Assembly (NCBI RefSeq): GCF_003730275.1
Contig: NZ_QTTA01000019.1
Coordinates: 1 to 64,000, forward strand
Direction: 5' to 3'
Length of the DNA stretch: 64,000 bases
Source: Brevundimonas halotolerans
GTDB taxonomy: Bacteria; Pseudomonadota; Alphaproteobacteria; Caulobacterales; Caulobacteraceae
Within the stretch, counting starts at the first letter, position 1, and each line of letters begins with the position of its first letter. The translations under genes were made by a program, and so were the position numbers. Positions 21,074 through 28,779 of the stretch are shown here, one piece after another. A model generated the notes under the pieces. It did not search any database. It saw only the letters and a list, made by a program, of their open reading frames with translations, and was not told the DNA's origin.

Positions 21074-21537
21074 GGGCGGTGACGGACTGGCTGGCGGGGC
21101 GGACGCCGCGCGAGCGGGCGATGCTGATCGGGCTGGCGGTCGTGGTGCTGGGGCTGGTGGTCTTTTACGGCGTGGTGCAGCCGCTGTACGGCTGGCGCGA
21201 GGCGGCGGCGGAGCGGCGGATCGAGGCGACCGAGGCCACCCGGCTGATCGCGGCGGCGGAGGCTCGCATCCGGCCCGGTGCCACATCGGACCCCGCCCGT
21301 CTGGCCGAGGTAGCCGGGCCGCTGGCCGAGGCCCAGGGGCTGGCGGTCGAGCTGTCGCCCGGCGACGACGGCGGTCTGGCCTTTGCCGCCCAACAGGCCC
21401 CGACGGCGGCCCTGTTCAGCTGGCTGGCCGCGCTGGAAAGCCAGCACGGCATCGAGGCGGTCGCCATCAGCGTCACGGAAAACGCCGATGCGACGCTGCA
21501 GGCTCAGGGCCTGCTGGTGTCCGCTCCGGCCCGGTAG
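21070..21537 (+). CDS. gspM: Type II secretion protein GspM
   Basis: 155 residues, short for the family. The basic N-terminus includes WLAGRTPRERAM, a membrane helix follows (LIGLAVVVLGLVVFYGVVQP), then a coiled segment and a small periplasmic domain. It stabilises GspL. Last gsp gene here: no gspN or prepilin peptidase gspO follows. The 3' end overlaps the convergent amidohydrolase gene by 34 bases. Confidence 0.9.
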   Translation: MRAVTDWLAGRTPRERAMLIGLAVVVLGLVVFYGVVQPLYGWREAAAERRIEATEATRLIAAAEARIRPGATSDPARLAEVAGPLAEAQGLAVELSPGDDGGLAFAAQQAPTAALFSWLAALESQHGIEAVAISVTENADATLQAQGLLVSAPAR

Positions 21538-23198
21538 ACCACCTCGCCGTCGACGATGGTCAGCACGGCCCGGGCGTTCGGCAGCTCGGCCTCGGGCGCG
21601 GTCATCAGGTCGAGGTCAAAGGCGGTGAAGTCGGCGCGCTTGCCCTCCTCGATCGTGCCCAGCTCGTCCTCGCGGAAGCTGGCATAGGCCGGCCACAGGG
21701 TGAACATGTGCAGGGCCGTCATCCGGTCCACGGCCTCGTCCGGGCGCCAGTCGGGGCCCTGGAAGCCCTCGAGGTCGCGGCGGGCCACGGCGGCATAGAA
21801 TTCGATGGCCGGATCGCCGCGCTCCACGGGAGCGTCGGAGCCCCCGACCACGATCACGCCGAGGTCCACCAGGCTGTGCCAGGCATAGGCGCCGTCAAGG
21901 CGGGCATCGCCCAGCCGGGCCGGGGCGAAATGCAGGTCGCCGATGGCGTGGCTGGGCTGCATGGAGGCGATGATCGGCAGGTCCACGAACCAGCGGTAAT
22001 CCCCGGGCCGCAGGATCTGCGCGTGCTCGATCCGCCAGCGCACGTCCTCGCCGTTCGGACGCTCGGACGCGGGCACCGCCGCCAGCGCCTCGGCATACCA
22101 GTCGGCGACGGAGGCATTGCCCCGGTCGCCGATGGCGTGGGTGGCGATCTGGATGCCCGAGCGCAGGGCGGCCTCATAGACGGGCACGGCCTCGGCGGCC
22201 GTCATCTGCATGAGGCCGGTGGTGTCGGGCCGGTCAGAGTAGGGCTCGAACAGGGCCGCCCCGCGCGAGCCTAGCGCCCCGTCGGCATACATCTTGACCG
22301 CCCGGGTGATGACCCGGCCGTCGGCGACCGAGCGCGGGCCCGAGGCGAACAGGGCCTCGGCGCCGTCGGGCGTGACGCTGGTGTAGACGCGGATCGGCGC
22401 CTCGCCCGCCTCGGCCATCGCCTCCAGCAGGGGGATGTCCCGCCACGGCGCGCTCATGAAATGGATGCCGGTCCAGCCATAGCGGGCATAGACGGCAAAG
22501 CCGGCGCGGTAGACCTCGCGCGGGGACACGGGATTTTCTCCCAGCTGGCGCCAGACGCCGCCCAGCAGATCCATGGCCGCATCGACCAGCAGGCCGGTGG
22601 GCTGGCCGTCCGGCCCCTTCAGGATCTCGCCGCCCGAGGGTGCGACGGTTGAGGCATCGATGCCCGCCGCCGCCAGCACGGCCGACGACACCACCACCGC
22701 ATGGCCATCAGCGCGCCACAGGAACACCAGCCGCCCCGGCGCCGCCGCATCCAGATCGGCCGCCGTCAGGAACCGCGCCTCGGGCCAGCGGGTCTCGATC
22801 CAGCCCCGGCCGAGGATCGGCCCCTCGGGGTGGGCCACCGCCCAGGCCTCCAGCCGCACCATGGCCTCATCGACCGAGGCCGAGCCCTCGAGGTTCAGCT
22901 CCATCTCGCGCGCGCCGATGCCGTCCAGATGGGCGTGGCCGTCGGTAAAGCCGGGGAACAGCACCGCGCCCTCAAGGTCGATGACCGGGACCCCCGCATG
23001 ATCGGGCAGGCCCGCCTCGGCCCCGACAAAGACGATGCGGCCGTCGCGCACCAGCACCACCTCGGCCGAGGGGGCGGTCACCACCCCCGTATGGATCGGC
23101 CCGCCCCGGATCAGCATGTCCTGGGCCAGGGCCGCGCCGGGCACCGCCAGCAGGAGGGCGGAGACGAGGGCGGCGGGGAGGGCGGAGAAGGGGCGCAT
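21504..23198 (-). CDS. Exported amidohydrolase (YtcJ/amidohydrolase-3 family)
   Basis: 564 residues from ATG 23198, chosen for GAGGTGACC just upstream (GTG 23204 is an alternative). A signal peptide ends at about residue 26 (GAALAQD). The metal-binding start FPGFTDGHAHLDGIG carries HxH. IATHAIGDRGNASVADW and RIEHAQILRPGDYRW supply further His ligands, and GSDAPVERGDP the catalytic Asp. Amidohydrolase-3 enzymes hydrolyse amide or cyclic-amide substrates; the substrate here is unknown and a periplasmic location is inferred. Convergent with the gsp operon. Confidence 0.88.
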   Translation of the reverse strand: MRPFSALPAALVSALLLAVPGAALAQDMLIRGGPIHTGVVTAPSAEVVLVRDGRIVFVGAEAGLPDHAGVPVIDLEGAVLFPGFTDGHAHLDGIGAREMELNLEGSASVDEAMVRLEAWAVAHPEGPILGRGWIETRWPEARFLTAADLDAAAPGRLVFLWRADGHAVVVSSAVLAAAGIDASTVAPSGGEILKGPDGQPTGLLVDAAMDLLGGVWRQLGENPVSPREVYRAGFAVYARYGWTGIHFMSAPWRDIPLLEAMAEAGEAPIRVYTSVTPDGAEALFASGPRSVADGRVITRAVKMYADGALGSRGAALFEPYSDRPDTTGLMQMTAAEAVPVYEAALRSGIQIATHAIGDRGNASVADWYAEALAAVPASERPNGEDVRWRIEHAQILRPGDYRWFVDLPIIASMQPSHAIGDLHFAPARLGDARLDGAYAWHSLVDLGVIVVGGSDAPVERGDPAIEFYAAVARRDLEGFQGPDWRPDEAVDRMTALHMFTLWPAYASFREDELGTIEEGKRADFTAFDLDLMTAPEAELPNARAVLTIVDGEVVYRAGADTSRP

Positions 23199-23244
23199 GG
23201 TCACCTCACGAATTGGGGACCCCCGGGGTGCAACCGTTGCCGCG

Positions 23245-23400
23245 TCAGGTCAAGTCACCACGTTCCCTCGCGCCCTCGGCCCGCATGCGGCGGAGATGGT
23301 CCAGCCGACTCTGCAGTTCGGCGCGCAGCTCTGCCAGCTCCTCGGGGGAGCAGTCGTCTTCCGGGTCGGCGGCAGGCCGGGCGGTACGGGGATGCGGCAT
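23245..23400 (-). CDS. Possible small acidic helical protein
   Basis: 51 residues, MPHPRTARPAADPEDD followed by a charged helix SPEELAELRAELQSRLDHLR and a short tail. The helix has a heptad-like Leu pattern suggesting a coiled coil. The ribosome site is weak and the frame is open upstream into repeat DNA, so this could be spurious. It lies directly upstream of the exported amidohydrolase on the same strand. Confidence 0.4.
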   Translation of the reverse strand: MPHPRTARPAADPEDDCSPEELAELRAELQSRLDHLRRMRAEGARERGDLT

Positions 23401-23443
23401 GGGCGGGGGTCCTTTTTTGATGAGAGGGGAGAGGAGGAAGGCA

Positions 23444-23608
23444 TTCACCTCTCCGTCCCCGACGGGGAGGTGGCGCGGCGCATCTGCGCCGTGACGGAGG
23501 GGGCGCCTCGACGGGAGACGCCGGGGCGGACAGGCACAGAAGGCAAACGGCAGCGCCGCCCCCTCCACCGCTACGCGGTCCCCCTCCCCATGAAATGGGG
23601 AGGTGAGT
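23444..23608. mobile_element. MITE-like inverted-repeat element, family A (diverged)
   Basis: About 165 bases. The left end TTCACCTCTCCGTCCCCGAC and the right end (read in reverse) ACTCACCTCCCCATTTCATG both lead into GGGGAGG and then GGAGGGGGCG. Interior patterning matches family A at 16909 and 51180, but the termini differ (CACCTC in place of CTCCTC). Confidence 0.55.
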
Positions 23609-23662
23609 GTAGGGCATGCCTCTACGCCCCTGCCGTTACCGGCAGCGGTGGGGAGGGCGGCG

Positions 23663-24017
23663 GGACGCCGGGCCTTCGCCCGGAGTGACTATGGTTTACC
23701 GTTTCGACGAAGACTGACGCCCCGCGCAGACGGTTTTCCAAGAGCTTGCGTCGGGTGGCCGTGTTCGGGCCTTACCGCAGCGCCCCCGGCGGGCAGGAGG
23801 CGCCGGCGGCGCCTTCCCTGGACCGGCCGGGTATCCCCCCCGACCCTTCGACGGCACCCGCACCCGGAGGTGTGGTGGCGTCGGCCTTGCTGGCTCTGAC
23901 CCGGCCCGCATCCGCGAGACTTGCCCGTAGCCCGCGACCAAACGGCCTCAAGCAGCGAGCGCCCGCGGCGCGAGCGATAGGCCAAGCAAACAAGCCCCGC
24001 TCCATCCGCTCCCGCCG
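23663..24017 (-). repeat. Long composite intergenic repeat, copy B
   Basis: Reverse-orientation relative of 5198-5486. It shares the CCGGGC-CTTC-GCCCGG hairpin, TTACCGTTTCGACGAAGAC, GCTTGCGTCGGGTGGCCGT, CGGGCCTTACCGCAGCGCCC and the GAGCGGATGGAGCGGGG block. It is longer than copy A by about 65 bases in the middle. It contains hairpin H copy 4, flipped relative to copy A. No gene is supported inside. Confidence 0.6.
23944..23983. repeat. Hairpin repeat family H, copy 4
   Basis: The outer stem is GGCCT / AGGCC, the inner stem GCGCC-CGC-GGCGC, and the conserved blocks are CAAGCAGCGAG and GAGCGATAG. Embedded in composite repeat B. Confidence 0.75.
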
Positions 24018-24449
24018 CCGCATCGAACGCCGGCCGAGCGCCCTCCCCCGCGACGGGACAGGGGGATGATTGCATGGGCTCGAGCCAGGGCGAGCAAAAC
24101 GGTGCGAGAAACGCGAGGGCCGTTGAAAGGGCAGGGGAAATGCGGGGCAGGGCGGATAGTTGGACCCCTCAACCCGTCATACTCGGGCTTGACCCGAGTA
24201 TCGGAGCGGGCAGGCGGCGGGCCGGTGTGGGGGCGGTGAAGTCGGGTTCATCACAGAGAGCACAAAGATGGACACAGAGGACACCAAGGGGGGTGCCGTG
24301 GGAAGGCGGAAAGAGATATTTGTTCCTCTTTCGTTCTTGTGCAGGAGGGCCAAGTATGCAACTTTATGGACTCAATTTCCGACTCAGGCCCTCATCGTTT
24401 CCCGGCGCTGCTCCGCAGCCTGCTAATGAGCGGTTGAGGGGGATGGAAC
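24018..24449. other. Gene-free stretch upstream of the HD/YwgA-like island
   Basis: No credible gene. Holds a perfect 9-bp hairpin ATACTCGGG-CTTGA-CCCGAGTAT at 24179-24201, of a kind scattered through alphaproteobacterial genomes. A purine-rich stretch around 24250-24290 (CACAGAGAGCACAAAGATGG, then ACACAGAGGACACC) resembles the ACACAGAGG-type repeats seen in unrelated bacteria. Base composition falls from about 24290 onward, marking the left edge of the island. A weak open frame from ATG 24356 has a good AGGAGG site but overlaps the HD gene. Confidence 0.5.
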
Positions 24450-25799
24450 ATGATGCATCAAAGGCTCAGGGACCCGGTTCACGATCTAATCGAGTTTTCG
24501 GACAGCGCGTTCGAATGCATGATCTGGAAACTCTTGGAAACACCAGAGTTTCAAAGACTGCGGCGTATTCGACAGTTGGGTTTCTCTGACCTCGTCTTCC
24601 CTGGCGCGACTCACTCAAGATTTGCACATAGCGTGGGCGTCTTTCACACGGCCCGCTTGCTCTGTGGTGTTATCGCCGAGAAGCTTGGCAATAACTTTAA
24701 TCGGGAGGCCGCAGAAACCGTTATCTGCGCCGCCCTGATTCATGATCTCGGGCACGGACCATTTAGCCACGCGTTTGAGTCCGCTCTAAACATGAGCGGC
24801 CGACATGAGGCATGGACAGAGAAGATTATTCAGTCGCCTGATGTTTCAAAGATTATGGATGACTACAGGCAGAATATGTCTTCTGACGTGGCCAAAATTT
24901 TCAAGGCCGAGTCATCTCCGGATATATACTCGTCAGTGGTTTCCAGCCAATTCGATGCAGATCGCCTTGATTATATGCGGCGAGATCGAATGATGACGGG
25001 TACCCAGATTGGGGGCATCGATTTTACTTGGCTTCTTAGCAATCTTGAGGTTTGCAAAATCGATGTTGGCGTTGATGACCAGAAATATGCGGAAATCGAT
25101 ACACTCGTTTTGGCCAACAAGGCGCTCTGGGCGGGTGAAAGTTATGTACTTTCACTGTTTCAGCTTTATCCTAACGTCTACCTGCACAAAACCACCCGAG
25201 GGGCGGAACAGCTCTTTGGGCTGATGATGCAGTCTATAAAATCATTGGTCGATGAAAGAAGTGAAGGTCAAACCGGCCTACCGGCTGACCATCCCCTCAT
25301 TCGATATCTCAGAGATCAGACGCTCTCAAATTATCTGGAGCTCGACGACACTGTTGTTTGGGGGGCCTTGCCGCTAATCGCTCAAGCGAAAGACGCGGAG
25401 TTAGCCCGCGTTGCAAATGATCTACGATACCGAAATCTTCCGAAGGCCATCGACGTGGGAAGGGCGCTCGCAGGGGGGCACGTCAACGGGCCAGCTAACC
25501 CTCGAACCGTGAAGTTCGCGCGTCTACTCGCGGAGGCGGTGAAGTCGAATCAATCTCTGGCCAACCGCATTCTAAGCGACAATTTTAGTCGAAATCCGTA
25601 CAAGCGACGAGCTTATGATTCGCCTAGAGCCATTCAGCGCATCCACATTCTGGTGGAGGGTCGCCCAGTAGATTTAGCCGACGAATCCGCCGTGGTAAGG
25701 GCTCTAATGCCGTTCGAAGTTAACAGGCTGTATACGAGACCCGACGATGGTGAAGCCCGTAACATCGTCCAAGCCGTCATCAAGGAGGCAATGAACTGA
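24450..25799 (+). CDS. HD-domain phosphohydrolase, SAMHD1/dGTPase-like
   Basis: 449 residues from ATG 24450 (ATG 24453 equally possible; GAGGGGGA upstream). The N-terminus RLRDPVHDLIEF is typical of the YwfO/EF1143 branch of HD dNTP triphosphohydrolases. Metal-site residues are in HSRFAHSVGV (His60), IHDLGHGPFSH (His98-Asp99) and FDADRLDYMRRD (Asp171). A helical C-terminal half follows. Likely hydrolyses dNTPs or related nucleotides. GC is visibly lower than in neighbours (50 of 100 bases in 24901-25000) and rare ATA codons occur, pointing to horizontal transfer. The stop overlaps the next start (TGATG). Confidence 0.88.
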   Translation: MMHQRLRDPVHDLIEFSDSAFECMIWKLLETPEFQRLRRIRQLGFSDLVFPGATHSRFAHSVGVFHTARLLCGVIAEKLGNNFNREAAETVICAALIHDLGHGPFSHAFESALNMSGRHEAWTEKIIQSPDVSKIMDDYRQNMSSDVAKIFKAESSPDIYSSVVSSQFDADRLDYMRRDRMMTGTQIGGIDFTWLLSNLEVCKIDVGVDDQKYAEIDTLVLANKALWAGESYVLSLFQLYPNVYLHKTTRGAEQLFGLMMQSIKSLVDERSEGQTGLPADHPLIRYLRDQTLSNYLELDDTVVWGALPLIAQAKDAELARVANDLRYRNLPKAIDVGRALAGGHVNGPANPRTVKFARLLAEAVKSNQSLANRILSDNFSRNPYKRRAYDSPRAIQRIHILVEGRPVDLADESAVVRALMPFEVNRLYTRPDDGEARNIVQAVIKEAMN

Positions 25800-26302
25800 T
25801 GCTAAATGATTGCAACACCGTCCATGCAATTGTGTCTGCCGCAGGGGGAGAACTCGTAGGCAAGACCCGGCTTCAGAAGATTGCATTTATCCTCAAGGCC
25901 GCTGGCTTGTCTGGATCTCTCAGCTTCCGATACCACTATTACGGCCCGTATAGTGAGGACCTGGCCTTTGAAATGAAGGAGGCCTTGGTTGATGGATTAA
26001 TCGAGATGGAAGATCGGCCCGCCTCTTGGGGTGGGACGTTTACCGTCTTTCGGTCAAATGTTGCCTGTAAGGTGGATGGGGCAACCCAAAGTATCGTTGA
26101 TGTCGCCTGCGCCTACGACTCTATAGCCTTGGAGCTTGCGGCCACTGCCGCCTTCCTTCGGAAGGAAATGGAAGAAGGCTACTGGGAAGAAACGTCACGT
26201 AGAAAGCCTCAGAAAGCTACGCCTGAAAGGATTTCTCAGGCCAAAGACCTTTGGGGCAAACTCCTTGAGGTCGAAACACCTACACCGTTGCCCGCAATTT
26301 AA
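25799..26302 (+). CDS. YwgA/Panacea-like small protein, partner of the HD protein
   Basis: 167 residues. GGELVGKTRLQKIAFILKAA and FRYHYYGPYSEDLAFEMKEA match the pattern K-xLQK...GPYS found in B. subtilis YwgA and, more loosely, in Panacea (SocA-like, DUF4065) antitoxin domains. A helical C-terminal part ends in a Pro-rich tail. No membrane or signal segment. Overlaps the HD gene stop by one base, shares its low GC, and is probably made in fixed ratio with it. Function unknown; regulator, adaptor or antitoxin of the HD enzyme is the inference. Confidence 0.75.
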   Translation: MLNDCNTVHAIVSAAGGELVGKTRLQKIAFILKAAGLSGSLSFRYHYYGPYSEDLAFEMKEALVDGLIEMEDRPASWGGTFTVFRSNVACKVDGATQSIVDVACAYDSIALELAATAAFLRKEMEEGYWEETSRRKPQKATPERISQAKDLWGKLLEVETPTPLPAI

Positions 26303-26304
26303 CC

Positions 26305-26475
26305 CTAAAGCCGCCCCTTCCGGAACGCTTCCGCCTTCTCCGCGGCCGCCTCGGCCCGCCACCTCTTCGGCGCCGTCTTGTCGACCTCTTCGCCCACGCC
26401 GGTCAGCATTTCATTGGCGAACTCCAGGTCGAGGGCCTTCATCTTCTTGATCTGGTTCCGCGCTGCGCGCTCCAC
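26305..26475 (-). pseudogene. Detached UvrB C-terminal tail (UVR motif remnant)
   Basis: Reads RNQIKKMKALDLEFANEM, then an Asp/Lys-rich stretch, then RWRAEAAAEKAEAFRKGRL and a TAG at 26305-26307. The first part duplicates the end of the neighbouring UvrB ([18 protein letters not shown]). It is separated from the uvrB stop by about 55-75 bases and is in another frame, so it is not translated from uvrB. An internal ATG at 26442 would give a 45-residue peptide, but no ribosome site is seen. Best read as the original uvrB 3' end, cut off by a small duplication or insertion. Confidence 0.6.
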
Positions 26476-26527
26476 CGCCCTCCGCTTCGCTCCGGGTCGT
26501 CGCGCAGGGGCGCCGCTGCGCGTCGCC

Positions 26528-28738
26528 TCAGGATGAAATCATGTCCTGCGCGAACTCCAGATCGAGGAGTTTCATGCGTTTGATTTCATCCCTGAGGCGG
26601 GCGGCGTCCTCGAACTCGAGGTTGGCGGCGGCCTCGCGCATCTTCGCCTCCATGTTCTTGAGGGCGGCCTGGAAGTTGGAGCCGGTGAAGGGCTTGGCCT
26701 CTTCCTTGAGGCCGGGGGCGGTCAGGCGGTCCATCTGGCGGCTCTCATAGGGGCTGGCCAGGATCTCCTTTATGTCGCGCTTGACGCTTTCGGGGGTGAT
26801 GCCGTGGGCGGTGTTGTACTCGACCTGTTTGGCGCGGCGGCGATTGGTCTCGGCGATGGCGCGCTCCATCGAGCCGGTGGTCTTGTCGGCATAGAGGATG
26901 ACGCGGCCGTCGACGTTGCGGGCGGCGCGACCGATGGTCTGGATCAGGGAGGTTTCGGAGCGGAGGAAGCCCTCCTTGTCCGCATCGAGAATGGCGACCA
27001 GGCCGCATTCGGGGATGTCGAGCCCCTCGCGCAGCAGGTTGATGCCGATCAGCACGTCAAAGGCGCCGAGGCGGAGGTCGCGCAGGATCTCGATCCGCTC
27101 GAGGGTGTCGACGTCGGAGTGCATATAGCGGACGCGGACGCCCTGTTCGTGCATGTACTCCGTCAGGTCCTCGGCCATCTTCTTGGTCAGGACGGTGACG
27201 AGCGAGCGGTAGCCGGCGCGGGCGGTGGCCTTGACCTCGTCAATCACGTCATCGACCTGGTTGCGGGTGGGGTCGCTGACGGGGCGGATCTCGACCGGCG
27301 GGTCGATCAGGCCGGTGGGGCGGATGACCTGTTCGGTGAAGACGCCGCCGGTCTGGGCCATTTCCCACGGGCCGGGGGTGGCGCTGACGTGGACCGTTTG
27401 CGGGCGCATGGCGTCCCACTCCTCGAACTTGAGCGGGCGGTTGTCGATGCAGGAGGGCAGGCGGAAGCCGTATTCGGCGAGCACCGACTTGCGCTTGTAG
27501 TCGCCGCGGAACATGCCGTTGATCTGGCCGATGGTGACGTGGCTTTCGTCGACGAACAGCAGGGCGTTGTCGGGGATGTATTCGAAGAAGGTGGGCGGGG
27601 GCTCGCCGGGGCTGCGGCCGGTCAGCCAGCGGCTGTAGTTCTCGATGCCGGCACAGGCGCCGGTGGCCTCCATCATCTCGAGGTCGAAGCGGGTGCGCTG
27701 TTCCAGCCGCTGGGCCTCCAGCAGCTTGCCGTTCTCGTTCATCCAGTCGAGCGTCTCCTTGAGCTCGGCCTTGATGCCGTCGATGGCCTGTTTCAGCGTC
27801 GGGCGCGGGGTGACGTAGTGGCTGGCGGCATAGACGGTGATGGTGTCGAGGTCGGCGGTCTTCTTGCCGGTCAGGGGGTCGAACTCGTGGATGGCCTCGA
27901 TCTCGTCGCCGAACAGGCTGAGGCGCCAGGCGCGGTCCTCGAGGTGGACGGGGAAGATCTCGATCGTGTCGCCGCGCTTGCGGAACATGCCGCGCTCGAA
28001 CGTCAGGTCGTTGCGCTTGTACTGCAGGGCGATCAGGTCGGCGCGCAGCTTGGCCTCATCGATCTGGTCGCCGACGTTCAGGGTGAAGGTCATGGCCGTA
28101 TAGGTCTCGACCGAGCCGATGCCGTAGATACAGCTGACCGAGGCCACCACGATCACATCGTCCCGCTCCAGAATGGCCCGCGTCGCCGCATGCCGCATCC
28201 GGTCGATCTGCTCATTTATACTGGAATCTTTTTCAATATAGGTATCAGTACGCGGCACATAAGCTTCGGGTTGATAATAGTCATAGTACGATACAAAGTA
28301 TTCGACCGCATTGTCGGGGAAGAAGCTTTTGAACTCGCTGTACAGCTGGGCGGCGAGGGTCTTGTTGGGGGCCAGGATCAGGGCCGGGCGCTGGGTCTGC
28401 TCGATGACCTTGGCCATGGTGAAGGTCTTGCCCGAGCCGGTCACGCCCAGCAGCACCTGATCGCGCTCGCCCGTGGCCGCCTGTTCGACCAGTTCGGCGA
28501 TGGCGGCGGGCTGGTCCCCGGCGGGGGTGTATTTCGTCTCCAGCCGGAAGGGGCGCGAGACCTTGTCCGTCGGGCGCGAGGGGCGGTGCGGCACCCAGTC
28601 GGCCGGGGCGCCCGGCGCCTCCTCGGGCGTCAGGCGCGGCCCGGTGACCGGCGCGAACAGGGGGGGCGTGCCGGAAAAGGCCGCAGGGGCCTCGGACACA
28701 CCGGTGACAGAACGCGACGAGCGGGGAGAACGGGCCAT
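26528..28738 (-). CDS. uvrB: Excinuclease ABC subunit UvrB
   Basis: DNA-damage recognition helicase-like subunit of nucleotide excision repair. 736 residues from ATG 28738. Walker [13 protein letters not shown], the beta-hairpin region [20 protein letters not shown], motif [10 protein letters not shown], and motifs V/VI with [13 protein letters not shown] and [12 protein letters not shown] are present. A C-terminal UVR motif ends abruptly at [13 protein letters not shown]. The N-terminus carries an extra ~65 Pro/Ser-rich residues. A 100-base stretch (28211-28310) has only 38 G/C bases. A detached duplicate of the C-terminal tail lies immediately downstream. Confidence 0.97.
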
Positions 28739-28779
28739 GAACAGCAAGGTAGTGCGCCGGGGCCCGTGCGGCTAGGGGG

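Follow-up and report, generated by a model that had tools for sequence, protein, structure and literature searches.

What does a pair of overlapping genes of low G+C content do beside uvrB in Brevundimonas halotolerans, and do its two products act together? The locus lies in a 64,000-nucleotide stretch of DNA, referred to as the window, and consists of a gene for an HD-domain protein followed by a gene for a small protein. An initial interpretation made from the letters alone (the sequence-only reading) had taken the two for a candidate defence or toxin-antitoxin unit. The features on which the analysis turns are:

21504..23204, minus strand: amidohydrolase gene, the conserved opposite flank (Pfam Amidohydro_3; synteny with the relative G028)
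24164..26310, unstranded: exchanged segment with the pair, 2,147 bp, 52.6% G+C (comparison with G028)
24450..25799, plus strand: HD-domain gene for a predicted dNTPase of the EF1143/SAMHD1 type, 449 aa (Pfam, PDB search, model)
25782..25801, plus strand: Shine-Dalgarno AAGGAGG, within the HD gene, and TGATG stop/start overlap (sequence)
25799..26302, plus strand: small partner gene, stand-alone DarG C-terminal domain/YwgA type, 167 aa (hhalign, PDB profile, Foldseek)
26308..26481, minus strand: repeated, displaced 3′ end of uvrB (UvrB residues ~382-441 of the query)
26528..28747, minus strand: uvrB, the hotspot flank, with the ORF taken from the first start codon

The architecture of the locus was as first described: both ORFs are present, and they overlap by one base (TGATG), the A that closes the HD stop codon TGA and opens the small-gene ATG. 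A strong Shine-Dalgarno sequence, AAGGAGG, occupies 25782-25788, still within the HD gene and 10 nt 5′ of that ATG; together with the overlap this indicates that the two genes are probably translationally coupled. A Shine-Dalgarno-like motif also precedes the small gene at 63 of the 80 top-ranking loci of the survey described next. No promoter was found by a promoter scan at the locus. The claim of an unusual composition held as well, with exactly 50 G/C at 24901-25000, and with 51.6% G+C for the pair versus 68.7% for the window, in which the lowest value among 1,150 other stretches of 1,853 bp is 65.1%.

To assess how strictly the genes keep company, we scanned 84,980 species genomes, which yielded at least 562 relatives of the small protein, and kept the 80 that came highest in similarity to the window protein; the sample thus covers its nearer relatives rather than remote family members. 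With L009 and L075 left out because they start at a contig edge, 78 loci were assessable. An HD gene lay directly upstream of the small gene at 76/78 of these best-ranked loci, which span at least eight phyla. At 73 of them the HD ORF, in a few cases cut by a contig edge, overlaps the small gene or ends no more than 171 nt away; the 76 are completed by L042 and L061, where the HD gene is broken, and by L048, with an HD fragment at the contig edge. Only L037 and L040 had no HD gene. All pairs in this sample are on the same strand with the HD gene first, most commonly with a 4-nt overlap. Across 73 pairs the pairwise divergences of the two proteins correlate with r = 0.91, and co-variation between them is dominated by clade structure. 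Among 150 relatives of the source organism, the small protein was found in its own genome, G002, G003 and G018, and those four genomes, and no others, also hold a full-length relative of the HD protein; nearly all of the rest give only a distant dGTPase-like match to it. Taken together, these results support the view, already put forward from the sequence, that the genes form a conserved functional pair. The adjacency of ywfO and ywgA in Bacillus subtilis, to which the sequence-only reading had pointed, fits with this: in Priestia megaterium the HD gene adjoins a homologous small gene, within the context pta / lipoate ligase / rsfA ... tautomerase / ywhD, and the B. subtilis counterpart of the small gene appears to be ywgA. 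At the two loci without an HD neighbour, the nearest ORF upstream of the small gene encodes an ABC-transporter ATPase (L037:6150-6692) or is chorismatase-like and on the opposite strand (L040:4579-5118).

The HD protein gives a Pfam match to the HD domain (E 4e-10) and to the HD-associated region. In a phmmer search of the PDB its residues 5-418 align with Enterococcus faecalis EF1143 (2o6i, E 3e-47), with SAMHD1 ranking behind, and the best Foldseek matches of an AlphaFold2 model (pLDDT 94.1) were 4lrl, 3irh and 2o6i, with a TM score of ~0.8, the nearest being EF1143 with dGTP/dTTP and dGTP/dATP (4lrl, 3irh). The metal residues of SAMHD1-like dNTPases noted earlier are indeed present: 73 homologues show no change at H60, H98, D99, H102, H107 or D171, and 72 of them keep H119/E120. 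Also invariant are Q35, R38 and R57, which by our own reading of the conserved QRLRRI and HSRFAH motifs align with SAMHD1 Q142, R145 and R164, residues of the kind that contact the guanine effector and the substrate phosphate in SAMHD1-type enzymes (PMC12042053). By contrast, the residue at the position of SAMHD1 D137 may be Q, N, D, G or E, and the effector specificity is therefore perhaps not the same. With full-length homology, metal ligands and catalytic residues all in place, the protein belongs with the EF1143/YwfO type; it is probably a dNTPase by homology, and the conserved effector-site Q35/R38 suggest that it may be stimulated by dGTP. EF1143, a dGTP-activated dNTPase (PDB 2o6i, 3irh, 4lrl), thus shares with it the full-length sequence, the fold, the metal residues and the effector Q/R, but differs in context, since an HD homologue in DNA recorded as E. 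faecalis has no gene of the DarG C-terminal-domain type within 3 kb, whereas the window type is nearly always paired. The single-gene anti-phage dGTPase (NCBI NF041026; PADLOC dGTPase) has the HD superfamily and a proposed depletion of dNTPs in common with it; membership of that family was rejected at 23.3 bits versus a cut-off of 400, with ~62 residues aligned.

The small protein had been described as a YwgA/Panacea-like partner, of which the YwgA part stands. The proposed K-xLQK...GPYS pattern is present as GKTRLQK...GPYS and is conserved, while Pfam returned no match even at E 10, and PADLOC and NCBIfam gave weak matches to DarG, two still weaker PADLOC matches and no other family. A profile built from 85 aligned sequences was compared by hhalign with the DarG proteins that the small-protein search had retrieved from Pseudomonadota genomes, giving a probability of 99% (E 9.3e-18) over 150 columns, all in the C-terminal half of DarG, as against 82% over 46 columns for Panacea/PF13274 proteins from related genomes and 0.2% for an unrelated control. 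A profile search of the PDB matched the Mycobacterium tuberculosis DarG fragment in the DarT-DarG complex (7yk3_B, E 3.9e-5), and the top Foldseek hits of an AlphaFold2 model (pLDDT 95.6) were chains B and D of the same entry (probability 1.00, TM ~0.5-0.6, with a modest E of 2e-3). Profile, PDB match and predicted fold thus agree over the domain that the small protein is, as judged from sequence and model, a stand-alone DarG C-terminal domain. A close relation to the Panacea/SocA antitoxins (PF13274; PMC8832971) was accordingly discarded, the likeness being confined to the 46 columns around the K-LQK...GP motif.

In darTG the order is darT then darG, and the pair matches this, with the effector gene first and the DarG-type partner second. 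It is nevertheless not a DarTG system, because the upstream gene encodes a dNTPase-type HD protein instead of the ADP-ribosyltransferase DarT and the 167-aa protein has no macrodomain. The DarG C-terminal domain is described as occluding the DarT active site through mimicry of single-stranded DNA (PMC11481870, PMC12170906). With a median net charge of -2, and of -5 for the one in the window, the small proteins are no more than weakly acidic, so such nucleic-acid mimicry is not evident here. A functional analogue is Clover (CloA dGTPase and CloB nucleotidyltransferase; PMC12265719), likewise an HD dNTPase with a dedicated regulator. CloA is toxic without CloB (PMC12265719), and by analogy the HD enzyme would need restraint; in Clover this is exerted through p3diT, whereas in the pair it would be exerted through a protein. 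Membership of Clover itself was dismissed, since the small protein has the DarG C-terminal-domain fold and neither a nucleotidyltransferase family match nor a conserved [D/E]h[D/E] motif. A literature search, thin on subscription journals and preprints and hence weak as evidence, returned no paper on YwgA and YwfO as a pair, only passing mentions of YwfO, and none on a dNTPase with a DarG-type partner.

The genomic setting was compared with G028, which shares 21188-24163 at 85% and 26311-26720 at 95% DNA identity with the window, so that solely the DNA in between differs. The slot between these flanks holds the pair in the window and a BglII-type endonuclease (PF09195) with an MT-A70 methylase in G028. 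The repeat-rich gap in which the pair had been placed is therefore real but lies outside the unit, as 21188-24163 is common to a genome that does not carry the pair. In 20 Brevundimonas genomes (L127-L146) the downstream flank of uvrB behaves as a cargo hotspot: it holds a retron RT-Toprim (I-C) and a DpnI-like nuclease in G015, C5 methylases in G027 and G014, a DndB-domain protein in G009, a NACHT protein in G018, an AbiEii-type AAA protein in G023 and HSDR_N in G007, with Vsr, D12 methylase and HNH as further members. Recognised or likely defence cargo stands directly beside uvrB in at least 8 of 18 other genomes, and the source genome and G002 additionally carry the pair there. Both the hotspot location and the patchy distribution by which defence systems are recognised were thus found for the pair. 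The hotspot is the strongest argument for a defensive use, and because of it we consider that the pair in the Brevundimonas lineage probably serves phage defence. Proximity to defence genes was clear at this flank and less so elsewhere: around homologous pairs in other genera, PADLOC families numbered 72 within 2.5 kb versus 36 at 4.5-8 kb, a weak enrichment made up mostly of redundant matches of few proteins from crude gene calls.

The hotspot also contains several low-G+C genes assigned to no family, e.g. L129:4691-5695 and L138:253-1548, and we regard the uvrB flank in Brevundimonas as a place to seek undescribed defence systems. In three genomes UvrB ends early (...EFAQDMISS*) and the normal C-terminus recurs, out of place, after ~80-100 bp (window 26308-26720; G028, L127:1-410; G015, L128:4027-4700). 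Since G028 and G015 have this duplication and not the pair, it is older than the pair, and a link between it and the exchanged segment was ruled out.

The pair is foreign in the B. halotolerans genome and has been acquired repeatedly among its relatives. In wider draws the small protein was rare, occurring in 1/299 genomes of the order besides the source and, with DarG matches set aside, in 2/399 of the phylum. The HD tree places Brevundimonas copies in three positions (the window with L008/G003, L003/G002 with other lineages, and L060/G018 far away) and nests members of the Verrucomicrobiota, Actinomycetota, Synergistota and Thermodesulfobacteriota among Proteobacteria; these scattered placements indicate horizontal spread of the two-gene unit. 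The window and G002 copies are 46%/43% identical, though they sit at the same uvrB flank. Quite different is the situation in the Bacillaceae (the family of Bacillus infantis), where the small gene was present in 100/101 genomes and is thus core, so that defence or addiction cannot be the whole role of the pair. HD homologues also stand without the small gene in Listeria, Enterococcus, Staphylococcus, Paenibacillus and on a Bacteroides-group plasmid, so the enzyme by itself need not be lethal. The idea of a defence or toxin-antitoxin unit therefore survives in part: foreign origin, the defence hotspot and kinship with a toxin-neutralising domain speak for it, the Bacillaceae and the solitary HD genes against it. 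The sequence-only reading had named three observations that would count against its proposal, namely a small protein mostly unpaired, no relation to YwgA/Panacea, or an HD gene that is core and of normal composition, and none of these was what the relatives displayed. A gene for class II ribonucleotide reductase is found close to two pairs (L051:4296-8075, L058:8643-12473) and a dCTP-deaminase-like gene close to two others (L024 near 5232; L017, near 7110 on the minus strand); both kinds of gene concern the dNTP pool, though the proximity may be chance.

Our preferred reading, to which we assign a probability of about 0.5, is that the HD gene encodes an allosteric dNTPase of the EF1143/SAMHD1 type restrained by a partner with the DarG C-terminal-domain fold, used for phage defence in Brevundimonas and for dNTP tuning in Bacillaceae. 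We infer the dNTPase activity, direct binding, the inhibitory sign, the trigger and the restriction of phage from the relationships described above. The small protein, made from the same mRNA, would bind the allosterically controlled dNTP triphosphohydrolase and keep it inactive, or under its activation threshold, in healthy cells. Once this hold is released, or once activating dNTPs rise during phage replication, the enzyme would drain the dNTP pool and DNA replication would stop. In Brevundimonas and other Alphaproteobacteria the unit moves horizontally and, in the defence hotspot of Brevundimonas, likely acts against phages, while the resident pair of Bacillaceae probably tunes dNTP levels. 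A bolder version, which we offer tentatively, sees in the pair a widespread, undescribed immune or stress unit in which the DarG-type protein plugs the dNTPase until phage infection displaces the plug by way of nucleic acid, a dNTP surge or a phage factor, leading to dNTP depletion. If true, the pair would correspond to Clover with a protein as the inhibitor, and the DarG C-terminal domain would be a module of general use for inhibiting enzymes.

Other readings share much of this evidence. The pair might be a housekeeping device, a regulated dNTPase that keeps dNTP pools in balance or clears non-canonical dNTPs, with no anti-phage role, in which case Alphaproteobacteria got it by transfer and the uvrB side is simply a tolerant insertion site. 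The core status of the small gene in Bacillaceae and the conserved housekeeping context in Priestia are what this would predict, YwfO-type proteins have been proposed, without test, to sanitise modified dNTPs (PMC4993169), and the loci near ribonucleotide reductase and dCTP-deaminase genes point the same way. We nonetheless think it rather unlikely, given that the pair is rare, patchy, low in G+C and repeatedly acquired in the relatives, where the slot otherwise holds restriction and retron genes. If the small protein were instead an activator, an oligomerisation factor or an infection sensor that the HD enzyme requires in order to function, the pairing would be explained equally well; as some HD enzymes occur without the small protein, restraint is not a constant requirement, and the active form of EF1143-type enzymes is a tetramer (PMC12042053). 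The sole characterised homologue, the DarG C-terminal domain, however, inhibits (PMC11481870), which makes such a role improbable.

A further reading is classical type II toxin-antitoxin addiction, with the HD protein as lethal toxin and the small protein as Panacea-type antitoxin. The overlapping two-gene operon, the mobile distribution and the remote Panacea-motif similarity speak for it; set against HD enzymes without a partner, core status in Bacillaceae and a similarity of 46 columns only, we hold it to be very improbable. Whatever its exact use, the pair is probably a tightly held, uncharacterised switch for defence or nucleotide control. For bacterial EF1143/SAMHD1-type dNTPases, a partner that is nearly always present and has the fold of a toxin plug is a concrete candidate regulator, concerning both a core Bacillaceae gene and a mobile alphaproteobacterial unit. 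Restraint of the enzyme by such a regulator would join dNTP depletion, the inhibitor domain of DarTG and the Clover-like restraint of a toxic dNTPase.

Searches of phage genomes and viral contigs returned no homologue of the small protein. The phage records OR846587, OR844990 and OR846731 (Listeria, Staphylococcus, Enterococcus) contain EF1143-type HD genes in what is apparently host chromosomal DNA; since they are marked UNVERIFIED and the Listeria one gives the HD match of a Listeria record, they are probable host contamination of phage collections. On alphaproteobacterial plasmids we observed a conserved four-gene cassette encoding a protein annotated as radical SAM, an RNase_T-type 3′-5′ exonuclease, an AAA kinase-like protein and an HD dNTPase (L006:1637-5422, L007:267-3886, L171:2622-6413, L172:2626-6413). 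Its HD proteins form a long branch nested in the clade that is paired with the DarG C-terminal domain, with the partner gone, as if it had been exchanged, and this loss speaks against a strict antitoxin role of the small protein. The cassette is located among Shedu, ThiF and VapC genes and is itself a candidate defence system.
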